Shown here: piece after piece, positions 2-14,232 of the stretch
Position numbering within the stretch: position 1 is the first letter of the stretch
How the letters are laid out: the number at the start of each line of letters is the position of its first letter
Source of the DNA: a virus
Reading direction: 5' to 3' (one strand)
IMG/VR virus record: IMGVR_UViG_3300042542_001970
Coordinates: 1 to 20,027 of that record
Length of the DNA stretch: 20,027 nucleotides
Program-made: the position numbers and the translations under genes
The notes under the pieces: model-generated
What the model was told of the DNA's origin: nothing
Seen by the model: only the letters and a program-made list of their open reading frames with translations
The model's database searches: none

Positions 2-268
2 CTGTCGCCCGCGCAGCAAAAAGCTAGGGCGTTTCAGATATTCCAAGAACGCAAGAGCCCAGGACTTGAGGGTGTGCAGACTAGGGTCGATGCTACGGCT
101 GAGCTGGAAGCACGGCAGCGGACACAGCGGCGTACACTTACTGACGCGGTGTTTCAAGAGGCTGTGCGTAAGAAAGACGCCGCCGGGCAAGCGGCGCGTC
201 GCGCTGCGATTTTGGCTGAGGAAATGAAAAAACCGGCTGGCGGTGGCAACGTAATCAAACTTGATTGA
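2..268 (+). CDS. C-terminal part of a probable virion or internal protein (5' end outside window)
   Basis: The frame is open from the left edge, so this is the last 88 residues of a longer protein. A GTG at 74 could be read as a start, but the reading continues upstream of it (LSPAQQKARAFQIFQERKSP) with the same composition, so truncation by the window is the simpler view. The visible part is charged, rich in Ala, Arg, Glu and Gln, predicted helical by eye, and ends in a Gly-rich tail (GGGNVIKLD). I recognise no family. Its stop codon is 8 bases before the ATG of the giant protein and the sequence TTGAGG over the stop supplies that gene's Shine-Dalgarno, so the two are probably cotranscribed and translationally linked. 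In podoviruses this place is often filled by an internal core or ejected protein, but that is inference from position only. Confidence 0.6.
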   Translation: MSPAQQKARAFQIFQERKSPGLEGVQTRVDATAELEARQRTQRRTLTDAVFQEAVRKKDAAGQAARRAAILAEEMKKPAGGGNVIKLD

Positions 269-276
269 GGCTTTGC

Positions 277-3200
277 ATGCCCATCTACGAATACAAAGGT
301 CAGCAGTACGAACTGTCTACGACTGACCCTGCGGAGGCTAAAGCTAAAATTTTGAGCTACCTAGCGCAGCAGTCCTCTGCCTCTGCCTCCGCTTCGCCAC
401 CTGCTGATAAACCGCCCGCTGCGGCTGCACAGCAGTCCCCCGCTGCCGCTTTGCCCCCTGCCAATAGACCGCCCGCTGCGGCTGCACAGCAGCCCCCTGC
501 CAATAGACCGTCCGCTGCCAGACCAGCTGCGGCTGCGTCCGTCGCTCCAACTGAGCCTCCTATTAGCGGACTAAGCGGAGAGTTTGCTGGGTTTGCAGAT
601 GTCTTTGCGCCGCCTGCTGAGCCAGCGCCCCGGAAAACTTTTACGGGTAGCGTGTTTGACACGGTGCCGTTCAATCCCCCGTTTGATCCAGCAGAAGCAG
701 CGCGGCTGTCCAACCGTGCGTACGCCGAAGGGACTATGCGGCCACCGGCTAGGAGGCTGCCCGGAGCAAGTATGACCGCCACGCCTGCGCGTGAGCAGCG
801 AGGACGTACGGCAACTGAGACAGTGGTTGATAGCTACATAGGCTTGATGCAAGGCGGTGCGGGGTTCTTCAAGGACATCCTTGACAACATTCCCGGTGAA
901 CCCGGCCAAGCCGTATTCGGTGGTTACATAGAGGGGCTTGAGCGAGCAAAGTCTCCGCAGCTTCGGTCGTCACAGCTTGCTCGCGAGGGGCGTATTGCCC
1001 GGGCAAGAGCACTGGAGGGTGAGGTTGGCGCTACCCGTGTAGCGTATCAAACGCTCTTTACTCCTGCCGGTGCCGACATCATGATGCAAGGCGCAGGCTC
1101 GCTGATACCAAGCGTTGGCATGAGTCTCGCCGGGCTTGGCTCCAAGGCTCTCATCGCGACAAACATGCTGTCCAACGCTGGCGGGGCTGCGGTCCAGTCG
1201 GCCAACCAACTCAAGCAGATATCGCCTGAGCAGTGGAGCAAGAGTGACGTTTACCAAGACCTGCGTAAAAAGGGGCTGTCGCATCGTGACGCGGTGTCTT
1301 TGTTGGCGCCGATTCTTGCGCTCCCCGCACAGATAACTGGCGCGGCTACTGGTCTTGTATCTGGCGCAACCGGCTTTGAGCGGGCGCTAACTCGTGGTAC
1401 TGAACGTGGGGTACGTGCGGCTGCTGGTCGTGCTGGTGCTGAATTTGGTGGTGAGCAGCTTGAGAGCCTTGCTCCGCAGTTCGTGGGCAATTTGATTGCC
1501 GGAACGCTTGAGCCAAACATCTCCGCACTTCAGGGGCTTGGTCAGACTGCGGTCGAGACGGCTGCTGGTGCGCTACCCGGCGCTGCCTTGGCTGCGTTGC
1601 CCTCCAAGCGGATGAACACTCTGAATGACTTTGCCCAGCGTAATGGGTTCAAAGACGTTCAAGACATGATTCGGAACACTCGTGACCGCAAGTCGCTTGA
1701 AGACCGATTGATTGAAGAACTCGACAAAGAGACCGACACTCAAGATACCGCCTCTCAACAGCAGCAGGAACGAAGAGAGCCGACGGTTGATCTGACCGCG
1801 TTAGGAGCGCAAGATGCTAGACAACCTATCCTCCCAACAGGTGGAGCTGGCGTTTCAGTGGCTGGCGAGCCCGCTGGTGGAGCCGCCCCCGGAAGAATTG
1901 AACCATCTGAACCAAGCGGAGTGGTTCCTGCTACAGCGGATGTTGGACAGCCTCCTGTTGGAGAAAGAGCAGGGGCCGGTGCAGTAACACCCACTGCACT
2001 GACACAGCGGATTGCGGAGCTTGAAGTTGAGCAAGAACTTCTTTCTTCGCGGCCATTGCAAAGGGGTGAGTCCAGGTTTATCCGAGAAGCTAAGCTTGCA
2101 GAGGTACAGCAGGAAATTGATGCGCTGAAAGAGAGACTCGCCCAAACCACTGAAACCGTTCAAGCAGAACCGCAAGCTCCTACTGCGCCAGCCGCCGCTC
2201 CTGCTGTCCCTACTGCACCTGCTGTTGAAGAGGCTAAACCAAAAACAAAGCAAGAAATACAGCAAGAAATACTGGAGGCTGCCACAGACGAAGAGCTTCA
2301 ACGGGCTATGCGCGAGATTGGCGGGTCAGAAGTTTCTCTCTTGCCCGTTGATCTCATACAGGGGGAAATTGACAAGCGCAAGGCCGCAAAAAGCGCCCCG
2401 CAGCAGCTTCCGCTTACTCCGTACATCACAGGGATCAACAAGCAGCTAGACGATTTCTACGGCGCGGTTTACAGCAAACCATTTGACGACCTGCCAGAGA
2501 GTCTCCGCCCCGCTCGCATGGCGCTGGACGACGTTAATGATGCCATTGGATTTGTCCAAGGGCGTCTGGCAAAGTGGGATCACCCTGCAATCACTGGCAA
2601 GACTGACACCGAACGCAGCATCGGTAAGGCCAAAGCCACCGCTGAAGAGAAAGAATTGCTTGGTGCTGTCAGCGGATTGGCTGGGCTCGGCGCTCGTATC
2701 GCTGGTCAGGCTATGGCCCTCAACAAGGGCTACAAGGGCAGGAAGGCTGGCAGCCAAGAAAAGATTGACGCCGCCGTCAAAGACGTCGAACAGTTGTTTG
2801 TTCGTGCTAATGAATTGCTTGATGCTCGCGGGCTGTTGTCTGAGGAAGAAAGCGCTGACCTACGAAAAGAGTTGGGTAAAGCCGCCCCACCGGCTGCTTC
2901 CGAAGGTATAACCGTTGAGTCCCAGCAACGCGGGAAAGATGATTTTGGAAACGCTGCTGTTGACGTTACGCTGTCTAATGGTAGTAGGTACAGAATCCAA
3001 CGTCTTAACTCAACTGAGTCGATGGGGCTGCCGGGATGGCACGATGCCTCTGGTGAATTCGGCGCTACGGTAACCAGCACTCTAGCAGGCGGCTTTTTGG
3101 GTAACACCAAAGAAGAAGCCATTCAAGAACTGATCCGTCGGGAAACAGCGAAACAGCGAGCACCAGCGGCTGAAGGCGCTCCGCCACCCAAAGCGCCCGT

Positions 3201-6200
3201 AGACAAACCCGAACCGTCTGCTGACTTGAACGTGCCTGAGGCACCGGGCGATTCGACAACTCCGCCTCCTGTAGAAGACACGCCGTACTACGGCTCTGAC
3301 GAGATCAACGCCCTTGGCGACAAGATCAAAGACACCGCGAACAAAATTGCTTCCGACTTCATGGTCGGCGACATGGTGCGTTACGGGAATGTAAACGGCG
3401 TCGTTGTTGGCGTGGACAACGTGTTTAAGCGCGTGATGATCCATCCCGACGGTGCTAAATGGGCTAAAGCCTACCATGCCGTACCGAAAGAAAAAGTAGA
3501 GTTGATCGCTCGGCCCGACACCACTTCCAAAACCGCCGCGATGGCAATGCCGGGGGAAGATAAAAAGTTTGGTGCGGAACAAGGCAAGCTCAACGCCGAC
3601 ATGGGCGGCCTCATTCAGTTGCTGGGTGCAAACATGTACGCCAGTTCAATTGCCGAGGTGACCATTAAAGAGTTGCTGCAAAACGCTTTCGATGCTGTGA
3701 AAGGCGCTGTGTCCGACAAGAAAGCGCCGTCGCTCTACAAGAGCGGCAAGATTACCGTAACTTTTAACGACGCTGACCGCACCATTACTGTGACCGACAA
3801 CGCACGAGGCATGACGCCTGATATCGTGCGCGATGCGTTCTTCACCGTAGCAGGCTCGGACAAATCCGATCTCAACCCAGAAGACCGCAGCGGTGGCCTC
3901 GGGCTCGCCAAGATGGGCTTCATGCTGGGCTCTGAGCAACTCATTCTCGACACCGTGCGAGACGGCGTGCGTGTTCGCGTAGACACCACGGCTAAAGATA
4001 TTGCCAACAGCAACTTCCAAATCACCAAGTCCCCAGCCCCCAAGGGCGAGCATGGCACGTCGGTCACTGTCAAGATTCCTGAGTTCTACGTGGACCCCAA
4101 GACGGGCGACAAGAGAAACATCTACTTTTTCTCTAACGCAAAGTACATTGAGCCCCTCCAAAAACCGCTGATCGGTCCGGTGGAAGTTAGCGTCGTTAGA
4201 AAAAATTCTTTTGAGGATGAAGTAGAGCAACTCCCCGTCGGCCTCAATTTCCCTGCTGACAAATACGTCACTTTCAAAGTTAACTTTGGGTGGGGGTCGG
4301 CGGACGTCTATTTCAGCAAGGAGCGCAACCCCGGCGCTTCGTATGCGATCAAGCATCAGGTGCTGTCATCTGGCGTGTACCAGTTTGATACGGACTTCAC
4401 GCATAACAACGAGAAGCTTCCGTACGACATCATCGTCAACGTCAAAGCAAATGTCGAAGCCAAGCACCCCGACTATCCGTTTGAGAACAGTCGCGAGCGG
4501 TTCAAGGGCCGTTTGAAGGACGACATTGCCGCTCTCAACACGTACCTTGTAAAAATTGCTTTGGGTAACGAAGCCCAGGACCTGCAAGAAAACTTTAAAA
4601 ACATCGTATCCATGCCCCGCGTTGAGATCGGGCAGGAATTGGCTGACGCCTCCAACAAACTACGCAAAGCGTTTGACCAGCGCGGTACAAGCGAGCGCCG
4701 TGAGTTGCCCCCTATGCCGAAAGAAGTTCGGGTGGAAGGCACCAAAGTTGTTGCAATTGACACTGGCAAGGTCGTCGCCGACACCGCCAAGAAGGCAGAG
4801 AAGGTCGCAAAAGAGTCGTTCACGGCAGAAAAAGAAGCTCCTGAGATGAAGGACTTCTTGCTGCAAATGTCGCAGAACCCCAACCAGCCAATCTTTCATA
4901 ACAACACCAACGTCGATCTGCTGGAGGTTGGTCGGCAGTACGGTAACCCCGAGCAGTTCTTCGCCGAGCTTGGTACGCTGATGGTGGAGATGAAAGAGGC
5001 TTTGGCCACCAGTGGTATATACCGCTACGACGTCCTCAAGCCTGAGAACCTGTTCTTTGCTGGCGTGTCCGTTGACAAGGGCTACGGCGGTGTGCATATC
5101 AAAGTGCCGTACAAGGCTGTGCTGGTCAATCCGTTCTACGACTTTGGCGCAAAGACTTTGTTTGGTGTGCGGGAGTACTTATGGGAGACCATGACTCACG
5201 AGATTGCCCACACTGGTGACATGGGGCATGGCGTTGGGCACAACACACATATGCTAAAAGTGCGTCAGTATCTGGCTGACGAAGGGCTTGCGGATTATTT
5301 CCGTGACGCGCTGATGGACGTGCTGACCAAGCACGAATCAACTTTTACCGCAATGAGGGAATCGTATGGACGAAGTACAACAAAGAACACTGCAAAATCT
5401 CTTAGCGACTACGAGAAAGGTTCCGCCTCAATTTCGGATGGAAGCGCTGCAAGTCGCGACCCGGACGCAGTACGGCCTCTACCGGCAGGAGGGAGACCAG
5501 CAGGGGATGGCGATATACGAACCGCTGGTCCTCTTGACACAACGAGCGGAATCCCCCGAGCAGCTGGAAGCACTGCTCCAACAAGCGTAAAAGGGCTGAA
5601 CCAAGACGTCGTCGATGCGATCAACCGCAACGATGTCAACGGAGCCCTGCGTGCCATTGCACGCACCACGACTGGATGGTATTCGGAATTGGCGCGGCGG
5701 CTGGCCGAGCTTAATTTGCCAACGGGCATCATCTTCAACAATGAGCGTGCGCTTGTAAAGAAGCTTATTGATGACCGTTCTGCGCCGCAGCAGATTCGGC
5801 TCTTTGCGTACCTGAGCAGGGTTGCGCCCAAGTTCTACGACCAGTACTTCAAGGACTACGACAAGGCTGAGAACCTTGAGCGGGTCTACGAGGGCCTTCG
5901 CAGGATTCCAGTGGTGGGCATCAACATTGCCCCGGTCAGTGCCGAGCTTGCCGATGTGAGGATTGCGTTTAACAGAACGATGCCCGGACTGGTTCGCCCG
6001 GGATTCTTTGCGCCTTCTCTCGATGCAATAAACATCAAGCCCGACAGCGCTTTCGGATCGAGCAACCGAGTGCTGCTGCACGAGATCGTTCACGCCGCAA
6101 CTGAATACCTTCTTTCTGAGAAGGTGACGCTGACCCCAGAGCAGGAAGCTGCGGCACGAGACCTGCGGGAGATGTATCGGTACGCTCAGACCAAGCTGCC

Positions 6201-9200
6201 GCCTGATGAATACGGGTTCACCAACATCTCTGAGTTTGTCGCGGAAGCGATGACGAACCCGAAGTTTCAAGCCAAGCTCAAGGGGGTGACGTTCCCGGCC
6301 CGCAAGACTTCGCTGTGGAATCGGTTCATGCAGGTCATATCGGATATGTTCGGCCTTGATAACTTGGCTGGCGCATCTGTATCAGCGATCAACGATCTTC
6401 TGTCGGCTCAGCGTCCGTCGGGTATTCAGCAAATGCCGCTGCGTTTTGCTGCGCCTAAAAAGGGCAAGCGAGTCCGTGGCCCGATCAGCCAGCCTGACAC
6501 TTGGCGCACCGCTGAATCGGTGGAGACCACAATCAAGGATGTTATTGATGACGCCACACAGGGCCGCGTGTCGCTGACCGAATCGCTAAAAGATTTGACG
6601 GGCGCGTTGTGGAGCGCCTCCGGCACGGGCGTACGGTTTGTCGTGCTGCCTGTACTGCAATTGCGACAGCTCAGGGATTTGACCCGTACCAAGTTTCCGC
6701 AACTTGGCGGCGCTATCACTATCGTCGAGCAGATGGTGGCCTATAGGGGCAGAAAGCTCAAGGTTGCCGAAGACATCGTGCAGAAGTGGTCTGAACTGCA
6801 AAACGAAAACCCGAGGCAGTCTGGCCTGATGGCTCGCATCATGCTTGAGGCAACTATTCGCGCCCGCGATCCAGATGATGGTGTACCGCCTGGGGCTACG
6901 CCTGATGCACTCGACAATGCTTGGAACGGCCTACGCCCTGAGTTCAAGCAACTGTACCGTGAAGTACGAAACTTCTACGCCGACTCCGTCAAAGAGATGG
7001 TGCGCACCATGAAGCAACGCGCACTGGGACTGCCCAAAGCTGATCGGCAGGAGATGATCCGCAAGATCAATGAGCAGTTTGGCCCCGACAAGCTGGTCAA
7101 GCCGTACTTCCCGCTGCGCCGTTTTGGTAAACACTGGTTCCAAGTCGGCGAAGGTAATTTCAAAGAGTTCTACACGTTTGACAGCGTAATCGGCCGCAAC
7201 TTTGCGTTCAACAGACGCCGTCGCGCTTTGAAGAATGGGAACACCCAACAGCGGACCGCAGCAGAAACCATGCGGATGGGAGATGGCATATCTGAGTTGT
7301 TCTCTCAGAATGTGGCTACCACGCAAGTCCTGCGTAACATGGAAGACGTCGTCGACAACCTAACTGCTACAGACGTCCCGACGCTCAAAGCCGAGATCAA
7401 AGACAGCATCAACCAGCTGATCTACTTGTTGCTGCCCGAACAGAGCATGCGCAAGATGTTCATCAATCGCAAGGCCATTCAGGGTGCCAGCTCGGACATG
7501 CTGCGGGTCTTCTCCAAGACTGCCGTTCACAGTGCGTATCAACAAGCACGATTCAAATACGCCGAACCGTTTTTGAACAACATCAGCCGCGCTCGTGAGT
7601 ACATTGAAGACTTGGAAAAATCCAAGCTCGCTACGCCTGAGCAGGGTAAGGTTTACCGGGATTACGTGCTTGAGTTGGAGAACCGTACAAAAACCGTGCT
7701 TGGTGTTGAAGACACCAGCTTTTTTGCCCGGCTCGTTGGGGGAGTGACCAACATCACGTTCTTCTTCATGCTGTCGGCACCGGCCAGTGCGCTGCTCAAC
7801 ATTGTGGGTATGGCGTCTCTCACGATGCCGCGCATCGGTGCTAGGTATGGATACGCCAAAACCAATGCACTGATGCTGAAAAACTTGGGGCTGTATACAG
7901 CGACCACACCCAAGCGTTCATTGGCCCCTGTAGTCCAGGGCAACTTTATGCAAGCCTCATTCCCCTCAATTGTGGAGGGGGCCACGCTTGACCCGCTGCT
8001 GAGATTAGCCGCAGATCGTTTTGTGGAGGACGGGGACATCAACATCTCCATGACGAACGACATCATGGGTATGAGCGATCTTCCGTCTGACTTGTATACG
8101 GGCAAGGCGAACACGCTGAAGAAAGTCATGGGCGGCCTGTTCCACCAAGCAGAGCGGCTCAATCGAGAAGTTGCCCTGCTGACAATTTTTGAGCTTGCGT
8201 TTGACAAGTACTCCGGTGCCGACCGTAAAGACATTCGCGGCGTTGTTGAGCGCGACCCTACGACAAAGCAGCCTCTTAAGTACACCGCGAATGAAGCGTT
8301 CGAACTTGCCATCCAAGAAGCCCGCGACATTGCTGGCTTGACGCTGGGCGACTACACCCGGCAGATGAAGGGCCGAATTTTTGCTATCCCGGGCGTCAAT
8401 CTTGTGACGCAGTTCAAGCAGTACGCGATCATCGGTACGTACAACATCTTGCGCGATTTCTATCTGTCTGTCGGTGCTCCATTCCGCAAGGCTGAGATTG
8501 AGCAGTTTCGGCAGCAGATGGTCAAGGATGGGTTGTCGCCGACTGTGATAGAGCAGCGCCTTGACGAGGCTGAGACATACCGCAAGGAGATGTACCGCGA
8601 AGGCATGAAACGGCTGGCCGGTGTTCTCGGCATGACGTATTTGTTTGGTGGTATCGTTGCCCAGCCCTTCTTCTCCATGCTCGGCCAGCTTATCGCCATG
8701 TTCGCTCCGGACGATGACGACGAGTTCTTCGACTGGGAGAACTGGTTCTACAACTTTATGGAAAATGAGGTCGGCGGTGCTGCCGCAGCTATCTTTACAA
8801 AGATGGGTGTGGATGCCGCCAAGTCTGAACGCGCAGGTATTGCACTAGGCGAAGCCCTTGCTAGAGGCCCAGTGGCGACGGCCACAGGAACGTCTCTTGC
8901 AGACCGCGTAAGTTTGGACTTGAAGAACCTCTGGTGGCGCGAAGGCCGCTACTCGCCCGATGCCCGCGAAGCAATCCAGCAAGAAGTGATTGCTAACATA
9001 GGTCCGTCGGTCGGCTTGGCACTCAATTGGGCCGATGCTTGGCAACTAGCAGGTGAAGGTCAGTGGGGGCGTGCGTTTGAAAAAGCTGCTCCTGCTTTGT
9101 TTGCAAAACCTGCGACAGCATTCCGGCTTGGCACTGAGGGAGCTACGAATCGTGGCGGTGTAGTGATTGGGGGCTTGTACTCTCAGGAGTTCACTACTTG

Positions 9201-9543
9201 GAACTTGGCCATGCAGGCAATTGGGCTTCAGCCTGAAAAACTTGCACAGGCGCAAAAAGCCGCCATTCAGGCAAAAACTTACGAGCGTAAAGTCCTTGAC
9301 CGCCGCAACGCACTGCTTGATCGGCTCTGGATGGAGCGTGGCACGCCAAGCTATGCGGACGCAGAGTTGAAGGCCAAACAATTTTCTCTGTTGTATCCAG
9401 AGCTTGCTATTGACGACAAAGCGATTGAACAATCTTTTGACGCACGGGCAGAAGCCAAAGCGCAGGCCGAGGCTATGGGCGCACGGCTTGACGAAAAACT
9501 TATCGAGCGTACAGGCCCCATGATGCGATACGGCATGCAGTAA
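277..9543 (+). CDS. Giant PLxRFG-motif polyvalent protein with GHKL ATPase and two zincin peptidase motifs
   Basis: 3,088 residues. I chose ATG 277 because GAGG lies 6 bases upstream; an in-frame TTG at 265 is less likely. Order by residue: short beta-rich start (PIYEYKGQQYEL); Pro/Ala-rich linker about 38-95; small-residue hydrophobic helices about 265-292 and 338-366; linker 513-570; coiled coil about 575-630; SH3-like patch about 1029-1078; GHKL ATPase with N box ELLQNAFDA (Asn1136), G1 box DNARGM (Asp1174) and G2 box GGLGLAKMG (from 1206); zincin HEIAH (1641-1645) with His1651; linker 1697-1772; second zincin HEIVH (1935-1939) with downstream Glu1986/Glu1990; PLRRFG at 2279-2284; hydrophobic segments about 2490-2516 and 2780-2810, the latter followed by DDDDE. 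PLxRFG and zincin-bearing giants are known as large polyvalent phage proteins thought to be injected with the DNA. The functions of the ATPase and peptidases, and their substrates, are not readable from sequence. Confidence 0.93.
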   Translation: MPIYEYKGQQYELSTTDPAEAKAKILSYLAQQSSASASASPPADKPPAAAAQQSPAAALPPANRPPAAAAQQPPANRPSAARPAAAASVAPTEPPISGLSGEFAGFADVFAPPAEPAPRKTFTGSVFDTVPFNPPFDPAEAARLSNRAYAEGTMRPPARRLPGASMTATPAREQRGRTATETVVDSYIGLMQGGAGFFKDILDNIPGEPGQAVFGGYIEGLERAKSPQLRSSQLAREGRIARARALEGEVGATRVAYQTLFTPAGADIMMQGAGSLIPSVGMSLAGLGSKALIATNMLSNAGGAAVQSANQLKQISPEQWSKSDVYQDLRKKGLSHRDAVSLLAPILALPAQITGAATGLVSGATGFERALTRGTERGVRAAAGRAGAEFGGEQLESLAPQFVGNLIAGTLEPNISALQGLGQTAVETAAGALPGAALAALPSKRMNTLNDFAQRNGFKDVQDMIRNTRDRKSLEDRLIEELDKETDTQDTASQQQQERREPTVDLTALGAQDARQPILPTGGAGVSVAGEPAGGAAPGRIEPSEPSGVVPATADVGQPPVGERAGAGAVTPTALTQRIAELEVEQELLSSRPLQRGESRFIREAKLAEVQQEIDALKERLAQTTETVQAEPQAPTAPAAAPAVPTAPAVEEAKPKTKQEIQQEILEAATDEELQRAMREIGGSEVSLLPVDLIQGEIDKRKAAKSAPQQLPLTPYITGINKQLDDFYGAVYSKPFDDLPESLRPARMALDDVNDAIGFVQGRLAKWDHPAITGKTDTERSIGKAKATAEEKELLGAVSGLAGLGARIAGQAMALNKGYKGRKAGSQEKIDAAVKDVEQLFVRANELLDARGLLSEEESADLRKELGKAAPPAASEGITVESQQRGKDDFGNAAVDVTLSNGSRYRIQRLNSTESMGLPGWHDASGEFGATVTSTLAGGFLGNTKEEAIQELIRRETAKQRAPAAEGAPPPKAPVDKPEPSADLNVPEAPGDSTTPPPVEDTPYYGSDEINALGDKIKDTANKIASDFMVGDMVRYGNVNGVVVGVDNVFKRVMIHPDGAKWAKAYHAVPKEKVELIARPDTTSKTAAMAMPGEDKKFGAEQGKLNADMGGLIQLLGANMYASSIAEVTIKELLQNAFDAVKGAVSDKKAPSLYKSGKITVTFNDADRTITVTDNARGMTPDIVRDAFFTVAGSDKSDLNPEDRSGGLGLAKMGFMLGSEQLILDTVRDGVRVRVDTTAKDIANSNFQITKSPAPKGEHGTSVTVKIPEFYVDPKTGDKRNIYFFSNAKYIEPLQKPLIGPVEVSVVRKNSFEDEVEQLPVGLNFPADKYVTFKVNFGWGSADVYFSKERNPGASYAIKHQVLSSGVYQFDTDFTHNNEKLPYDIIVNVKANVEAKHPDYPFENSRERFKGRLKDDIAALNTYLVKIALGNEAQDLQENFKNIVSMPRVEIGQELADASNKLRKAFDQRGTSERRELPPMPKEVRVEGTKVVAIDTGKVVADTAKKAEKVAKESFTAEKEAPEMKDFLLQMSQNPNQPIFHNNTNVDLLEVGRQYGNPEQFFAELGTLMVEMKEALATSGIYRYDVLKPENLFFAGVSVDKGYGGVHIKVPYKAVLVNPFYDFGAKTLFGVREYLWETMTHEIAHTGDMGHGVGHNTHMLKVRQYLADEGLADYFRDALMDVLTKHESTFTAMRESYGRSTTKNTAKSLSDYEKGSASISDGSAASRDPDAVRPLPAGGRPAGDGDIRTAGPLDTTSGIPRAAGSTAPTSVKGLNQDVVDAINRNDVNGALRAIARTTTGWYSELARRLAELNLPTGIIFNNERALVKKLIDDRSAPQQIRLFAYLSRVAPKFYDQYFKDYDKAENLERVYEGLRRIPVVGINIAPVSAELADVRIAFNRTMPGLVRPGFFAPSLDAINIKPDSAFGSSNRVLLHEIVHAATEYLLSEKVTLTPEQEAAARDLREMYRYAQTKLPPDEYGFTNISEFVAEAMTNPKFQAKLKGVTFPARKTSLWNRFMQVISDMFGLDNLAGASVSAINDLLSAQRPSGIQQMPLRFAAPKKGKRVRGPISQPDTWRTAESVETTIKDVIDDATQGRVSLTESLKDLTGALWSASGTGVRFVVLPVLQLRQLRDLTRTKFPQLGGAITIVEQMVAYRGRKLKVAEDIVQKWSELQNENPRQSGLMARIMLEATIRARDPDDGVPPGATPDALDNAWNGLRPEFKQLYREVRNFYADSVKEMVRTMKQRALGLPKADRQEMIRKINEQFGPDKLVKPYFPLRRFGKHWFQVGEGNFKEFYTFDSVIGRNFAFNRRRRALKNGNTQQRTAAETMRMGDGISELFSQNVATTQVLRNMEDVVDNLTATDVPTLKAEIKDSINQLIYLLLPEQSMRKMFINRKAIQGASSDMLRVFSKTAVHSAYQQARFKYAEPFLNNISRAREYIEDLEKSKLATPEQGKVYRDYVLELENRTKTVLGVEDTSFFARLVGGVTNITFFFMLSAPASALLNIVGMASLTMPRIGARYGYAKTNALMLKNLGLYTATTPKRSLAPVVQGNFMQASFPSIVEGATLDPLLRLAADRFVEDGDINISMTNDIMGMSDLPSDLYTGKANTLKKVMGGLFHQAERLNREVALLTIFELAFDKYSGADRKDIRGVVERDPTTKQPLKYTANEAFELAIQEARDIAGLTLGDYTRQMKGRIFAIPGVNLVTQFKQYAIIGTYNILRDFYLSVGAPFRKAEIEQFRQQMVKDGLSPTVIEQRLDEAETYRKEMYREGMKRLAGVLGMTYLFGGIVAQPFFSMLGQLIAMFAPDDDDEFFDWENWFYNFMENEVGGAAAAIFTKMGVDAAKSERAGIALGEALARGPVATATGTSLADRVSLDLKNLWWREGRYSPDAREAIQQEVIANIGPSVGLALNWADAWQLAGEGQWGRAFEKAAPALFAKPATAFRLGTEGATNRGGVVIGGLYSQEFTTWNLAMQAIGLQPEKLAQAQKAAIQAKTYERKVLDRRNALLDRLWMERGTPSYADAELKAKQFSLLYPELAIDDKAIEQSFDARAEAKAQAEAMGARLDEKLIERTGPMMRYGMQ
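411..510 (+). repeat. Imperfect direct repeats in the Pro/Ala-rich linker
   Basis: A 25-base unit at 411-435 (ACCGCCCGCTGCGGCTGCAC plus AGCAG) returns exactly at 468-492. The 19-base unit GCCCCCTGCCAATAGACCG at 453-471 returns exactly at 492-510. They encode repeated PPAAAAQQ and PPANRP blocks inside the giant protein. Such repeats can expand or shrink by slippage or recombination, so linker length may vary between related phages. Confidence 0.85.
1814..1987 (+). CDS. Small overprinted ORF (57 aa) nested in the giant gene, +1 frame
   Basis: Begins MLDNLSSQQVELAFQWLA, ends KEQGPVQ, stop TAA at 1985-1987. AGGAG at 1803-1807 lies 6 bases before the ATG, an ideal ribosome site. The product is leucine- and tryptophan-rich with alternating hydrophobic and acidic residues, as in a small folded helical protein (AEWFLLQRMLDSLLLEKE). 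By hand count 47 of 57 codons end in G or C in this frame, while only 16 of 58 giant-gene codons do over the same bases; a 40-codon stretch of the giant gene's ATPase region gave 26 of 40. Over this stretch the giant protein reads as Gly/Ala/Pro/Glu linker. Together this argues that the small frame is the one under codon selection. I recognise no family, and no signal peptide or membrane segment is evident. Confidence 0.68.
   Translation: MLDNLSSQQVELAFQWLASPLVEPPPEELNHLNQAEWFLLQRMLDSLLLEKEQGPVQ
5366..5590 (+). CDS. Second overprinted ORF (74 aa) nested in the giant gene, +1 frame
   Basis: Begins MDEVQQRTLQNLLATTRK and ends LEALLQQA. TGAGGGA just upstream places GAGG (5355-5358) 7 bases before the ATG. 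The product is Gln/Leu-rich and looks helical and soluble (RMEALQVATRTQYGLYRQEG, then PEQLEALLQQ). By hand count 46 of 74 codons end in G or C in this frame against 27 of 75 in the giant gene's frame, which here gives Ser/Gly/Ala/Asp/Pro-rich linker with otherwise uncommon codons such as GGA, CGA and AGT. It starts after the first zincin module and ends just before the next ordered stretch (GLNQDVVDAINRN). Function unknown. Like the ORF at 1814, it uses the frame whose codons begin one base after those of the giant gene. Confidence 0.68.
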   Translation: MDEVQQRTLQNLLATTRKVPPQFRMEALQVATRTQYGLYRQEGDQQGMAIYEPLVLLTQRAESPEQLEALLQQA

Positions 9544-13775: not shown

Positions 13776-14177
13776 TTACTTGGTGCTACGTCTTTGAATG
13801 GTGATCTCATATTCGCTGTCGATATGAAGACCGGGTGGATGAAGGTCTGGATTGTTGTCCAAGAATTCCTTCATGTTGGTTTGATGAATGCGCTTCTCCA
13901 GCAAGCCCATCGCATCGTGCTCCTGCATCATCTTGTAGAACTCCTCCCAATTGTTTGTCCAATACCGATTCTTGACGGTACGGTATGCAACCCCGTGCGG
14001 GGTAGAGAAACTGGTGGCCCCAGTCTCTTTGGAGATTTCAACGAGTCGATGCTTGAGGAGCGTCATCTGCTCTTCCAACTCGTCGCTCTGTGACTTGTAC
14101 TCTCTGTAGAGCAGGTCCTTTGTGTCGCGTAGCTTGATGTACGCTTTGACAATCTTCTCGATTGGTGCGTCTTCCAT
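13776..14177 (-). CDS. Coiled-coil protein resembling Gam/Gp157-type phage proteins (133 aa)
   Basis: The ATG at 14177 is chosen because GGAG lies 8 bases upstream and because the promoter puts the likely transcript start near 14198, so the longer frame (GTG 14213, inside the -10 box) cannot be made from it. The first half is a charged coiled coil (IKLRDTKDLLYREYK, DELEEQMTLLKHRLVEI). The second half runs through a short beta part (TSFSTPHGVAYRTVKNRYW) and ends in PPGLHIDSEYEITIQRR. A long helix, a TxxG beta hairpin, then a pGlxx....xxIR end is the general plan of Gam (host-nuclease inhibitor, DNA-end binder) and Gp157 families. That is a pattern resemblance only. First gene after the internal promoter; its stop codon overlaps the Shine-Dalgarno of the ssDNA-binding protein gene. 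Confidence 0.78.
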   Translation of the reverse strand: MEDAPIEKIVKAYIKLRDTKDLLYREYKSQSDELEEQMTLLKHRLVEISKETGATSFSTPHGVAYRTVKNRYWTNNWEEFYKMMQEHDAMGLLEKRIHQTNMKEFLDNNPDLHPPGLHIDSEYEITIQRRSTK

Positions 14178-14204
14178 GTTGCTTTCTCCGGTTATGAGGG
14201 CTTC

Positions 14205-14232
14205 ATTATACACCCTTTCTTTACTGTGTCAA
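14205..14232 (-). promoter_or_regulatory. Consensus sigma-70 promoter for the SSB-primase part of the operon
   Basis: On the - strand: TTGACA (14232-14227), 16-base spacer, TATAAT (14210-14205), both hexamers perfect. Transcription should begin near 14198, giving a leader of about 20 bases with GGAG before ATG 14177. The TGA stop of the helicase gene (14231-14229) lies inside the -35 hexamer. It should be read by host RNA polymerase without phage factors. Confidence 0.92.

Follow-up and report, generated by a model that had tools for sequence, protein, structure and literature searches.

Phages have genes that are embedded in, or overlap, another gene on the same strand; examples are Rz1, inside the lambda gene Rz, and the overlapping genes of phiX174. 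More generally, overprinted overlapping genes are well known in viruses (reviewed in PMC8227390). Separately, the polyvalent proteins of phages and conjugative elements have been defined as a class (Iyer et al., 2017; PMC5512222); in the available part of that text, the word "overlapping" is absent and nothing is said about embedded genes, and the open-licence literature yielded general papers on overprinting but no report of genes embedded in polyvalent proteins. The ORF considered here spans positions 5366–5590 of the plus strand of a 20,027-nt stretch of viral DNA (IMG/VR record IMGVR_UViG_3300042542_001970, positions 1 to 20,027; hereafter the window), where it occupies 74 codons plus TAA inside a giant gene. 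Like Rz1 within Rz and the phiX174 cases, it is a complete small gene nested out of frame in a larger one; it is read in the same direction and possesses a start codon and a ribosome site of its own. Unlike them, its host is a giant polyvalent protein whose linkers accommodate two embedded ORFs that are unrelated to each other, and its product has no family match, no cysteine (in the window's copy) and no lipobox. An Rz1-like embedded lysis gene was considered and rejected on the last two absences, which leave no lipobox signal sequence, together with the helical character of the product. Judging from the comparative sequence evidence set out below, we regard 5366–5590 as a genuine, functional same-strand overlapping gene with a probability of roughly 0.93.

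The host gene is a plus-strand ORF at 265–9543, encoding 3092 aa when counted from the first TTG, and its domains comprise a GHKL ATPase, an HExxH metallopeptidase, a second HExxH, LPD39, and a DarB-like C-terminal part. Tested for membership of the polyvalent class, it proves large and multidomain, with a zincin-like HExxH peptidase and LPD domains; the multidomain build, zincin-like metallopeptidase, LPD domain and DarB-like part are characteristic of the polyvalent proteins of PMC5512222. The GHKL/HSP90-like ATPase domain (HATPase_c; 3655–4080, plus strand, residues 1134–1272) makes up the upstream half of the segment that precedes the embedded ORF. The metallopeptidase domain (4852–5420, plus strand) carries the motif HEIAHTGDMGHGVGH from nt 5197, with HEIAH at 5197–5211 and an HExxHx5H spacing, and extends about 16 codons into the embedded ORF. 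This domain has no match in Pfam, and its best fold match, Wss1, is weak (E 1.9). By the giant's C-terminal part, the nearest cultured phages are the ~60-kb phages Erwinia PEp14, Ochrobactrum POI1126, Pseudomonas Skulduggery and Rollin, whose DarB-like giants show distant homology over the C-terminal third at 22–26% identity and differ in that four such loci gave no match to an HMM of the embedded protein. A search of cultured phages for the GHKL–peptidase segment did not recover it, giving no more than weak matches to its GHKL portion. The opposite strand of the window encodes a primase/helicase, a helicase, an HNH-type gene, an exonuclease and a DNA polymerase; amid these replication genes, a 145-aa ORF (13776–14213, minus strand) matches the PHROG "minor head protein" family (E 1.4e-20).

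The embedded frame opens at ATG 5366–5368, closes at TAA 5588–5590, and is read in the +1 frame relative to the giant ORF. Immediately ahead of it, the sequence TGAGGGA (5354–5360, plus strand), which reads M-R-E in the giant frame, both terminates the +1 frame upstream (TGA 5354–5356) and provides a Shine–Dalgarno-like GAGG spaced 7 nt from the ATG. By duplex energy, this site outranks ~95% of the other ATGs of the giant gene, in the window as in most relatives. Ribosomes would initiate internally, at ATG 5366, on the mRNA of the giant gene, and the 8.5 kDa product is probably a small, soluble four-helix protein. At the homologous start, the Shine–Dalgarno-like site is weak in L055 and missing from the distant loci L064 and L065, whose hosts may not depend on one. 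An earlier note, made from this one sequence, had described TGAGGGA followed by an ATG and 74 codons in the +1 frame, and the coordinates above confirm it; its counts of codons ending in G or C were likewise reproduced on recounting, with a GC3 of 0.62 (46/74) in the +1 frame and 0.36 (27/75) in the giant frame at the same place, the gene-wide value being 0.60. Its judgement that the case is hard to put down to chance fared less evenly. Conservation in relatives bears it out, but the open frame and GC3 of a single sequence are weaker evidence than was implied, since the +1 frame stays open in 64% of resamplings in which the giant protein is held fixed and its codons are redrawn from the usage of the gene.

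To find relatives without selecting for the embedded ORF, viral contigs were searched with the peptidase domain that precedes it in the giant frame, and the combined searches returned 46 distinct loci. Every one of the 46 carries the ORF directly behind the peptidase domain, although the loci are related to one another and such counts are not independent events. No in-frame stop and no lost start, either of which the earlier note had named as evidence against the gene if seen in close relatives, occurs in any of them. Counted from the homologous start, the product is mostly 61–78 residues long; in nearly all loci, 56 residues separate HExxH from that start, and the upstream +1-frame stop and ribosome site are kept in most. 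Three loci have the ORF despite only 33–39% identity in the peptidase domain. The HMM of the embedded protein matches its counterpart in all 46 loci, and the copy in L066 is still recognized (E=1.2e-4) by an HMM built with that locus left out. L064, L065 and L066 are distant giants in contigs of 75–115 kb in which the embedded ORF is retained. In L018, at ~3080–3121, a frameshift just 3′ of the embedded ORF breaks the giant frame, which continues in +1; it may be a sequencing error or real. A search of bacterial and archaeal genomes yielded no relative of the giant peptidase region.

Comparison of these relatives is what settles the case. The start codon consists of the second and third bases of a giant-frame codon and the G that follows, and in all 36 distinct loci with tyrosine at that position the codon is TAT; elsewhere in the giants, tyrosine is encoded by TAC 1810 times and by TAT 1322 times. 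The mean pairwise score of the +1 proteins is 145.5, versus 28.9 when the giant proteins are fixed and their codons redrawn; over the same DNA, the giant frame reaches a mean of 111.5, and the +1 score is the higher one in 572 of 666 pairs. When 14 close, disjoint pairs are pooled, positions 1, 2 and 3 of the giant codons carry 133, 63 and 70 substitutions within the overlap versus 113, 71 and 460 just upstream (Fisher p=9e-32, a value that among related loci serves as a contrast only). The synonymous-site comparison proposed in the earlier note therefore gave a clear answer, as synonymous change in the giant frame is far lower in the overlap than in flanking sequence. Within the overlap, pN/pS is 0.26 in the embedded gene and 1.19 in the giant frame; upstream, it is 0.11 in the giant frame and 2.05 in the +1 frame, which has no meaning there. 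When the measure was calibrated along the giants, only 13 of 3002 other windows reached the value of the overlap, and in the two pairs with several such windows these coincide with the other overprinted ORF of the gene, described below. As far as comparison of sequences can establish it, the embedded ORF encodes a protein family that is under purifying selection within the giant gene and has kept both its start and its place there.

Constraint is not evenly shared along the overlap. Over its first 16 codons, pN/pS is 0.46 for the giant frame and 0.82 for the embedded one; beyond them, the values are 1.44 and 0.23. This split corresponds to the tail of the peptidase, which extends ~16 residues into the embedded gene, the rest of the giant frame (5421–5590, plus strand) being a linker with no amino-acid constraint of its own. 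Structure prediction draws a similar boundary: in a model of a giant-frame fragment, the peptidase domain is well predicted and ordered, and pLDDT falls below 50 at residues 182–247, the overlap corresponding to ~172–246. An AlphaFold model of the embedded protein, made with 19 of its sequences, has helices at 3–18, 21–42, 45–60 and 64–72, with pLDDT 95.3 and pTM 0.82. A helical product and a disordered giant linker are thus supported at the level of predicted structures. Which of the two frames came first is a question of origin, and either answer is compatible with the overlapping-gene reading. It is possible that the overprinting ran in reverse, that is, that the embedded gene was formerly a separate gene behind a shorter GHKL–peptidase gene, and that the newer giant frame came to be read through it as disordered linker. 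The pattern of constraint and disorder fits a giant frame grown over an older gene, in that the giant is constrained over the first ~16 codons and free thereafter, while the remainder is where the embedded gene is constrained and encodes what is predicted to be a folded product. However, a codon-usage test of ancestry, in which the embedded gene was the better fit in 13 of 29 cases, favours neither frame, and no relative with the two as separate genes was present among the loci found. We consider the odds of this order of events to be even.

What, then, does the embedded protein do? Searches against Pfam, PHROGs and PADLOC profiles gave no significant match, with none below E 0.03; sequences of solved structures revealed no family, tblastn in phages and plasmids gave no credible match, and Foldseek against PDB and BFVD returned no match with E under 1. 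By structural alignment (VIA-align), the best Z was 6.1, an ordinary value for helical bundles. A TPR-like reading of its LYxQEGDxEGxxxYxPL hairpin was dropped, as no support for it was found. One reading, to which we assign a chance only slightly short of even, is that the gene is real yet unrelated to the function of the giant, its product being a small protein for the virion, for assembly or for host takeover that happens to be encoded at this place. Position is the sole link between the two, and the lack of a family match is in keeping with such a protein. Against it stand the fixed place directly behind the GHKL–peptidase segment, which is constant while the giant domains downstream vary between groups, and the presence of a single copy of the embedded gene in each of the long phage records that matched. 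Alternatively, the embedded protein may be a dedicated partner of the GHKL-ATPase/metallopeptidase segment, acting as an adaptor, a chaperone or in protease control, with one mRNA serving both. We put this forward tentatively, and it follows from the location of the gene directly behind that segment, whatever domains come after. The same location could simply reflect the common ancestry of that part of the gene.

The remaining alternatives question whether the ORF is a gene of its own, and they fare considerably worse. Programmed frameshifts are used by phages, and with both frames open across the region, frameshifting from the giant frame could in principle yield a truncated giant with a +1 tail and dispense with internal initiation. 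This is very unlikely given the +1 stop just ahead of the ATG in most loci, the retention of that ATG everywhere together with the invariant TAT codon, and a Shine–Dalgarno-like site that in most loci surpasses the great majority of other ATGs. It is also possible to imagine that a signal in the DNA or RNA, such as a structure, a packaging element or a regulatory site, has been conserved rather than a coding frame, as the third positions of the giant frame are strongly suppressed throughout the overlap. The suppression is frame-specific, however, with giant position 1, the third position of the +1 codons, being the most variable. A nucleotide-level element would not give such a pattern, and the alignment of relatives further shows that the +1 protein accommodates in-frame length changes, which together with its confidently predicted fold makes a signal of this kind a highly improbable explanation. 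Lastly, the notion that a Ser/Gly/Ala/Pro linker poor in +1 stops left a functionless 74-codon frame open by chance, as most resamplings of the single sequence would allow, has already been refuted by the comparative tests, namely the presence of the ORF in every locus fetched blind to it, pairwise scores far above the resampled null, the inverted codon-position pattern and the low pN/pS of the +1 frame.

The gene at 5366–5590 is not the only overprinted ORF of its host. A second lies at 1814–1987 on the plus strand, where 57 codons (MLDNLSSQQVELAFQWLASP...EWFLLQRMLDSLLLEKEQGPVQ) are read in the +1 frame within another stretch of giant linker. It is conserved in many relatives (L012, L014–L017, L020, L021, L024–L028, L033, L047–L050, L054, L060–L063), in agreement with the earlier suggestion that the same giant gene harbors two cases of overprinting, and was not found in L010/L013 or L064–L066. 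The shift in substitutions among codon positions is present over this ORF as well. A wider proposal, which we consider rather less likely than not, is that the 5366–5590 product is an ancient, dedicated partner of the ATPase–peptidase segment (an inhibitor, adaptor or chaperone) whose embedding in the gene of that segment would ensure that the two are always inherited and translated together, the disordered linkers of the giant serving as hosts for embedded genes, at least two in number.

The locus thus contains a deeply conserved protein family, predicted to fold well, that has been hidden in the linker of a polyvalent protein behind the same ATPase–peptidase segment. At any one locus, gene finders usually retain a single frame, and embedded genes within giant phage genes would consequently be missed. 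The case suggests looking for more such genes in the linkers of giant phage proteins, and through this small embedded gene the control of polyvalent proteins becomes a directly testable question.
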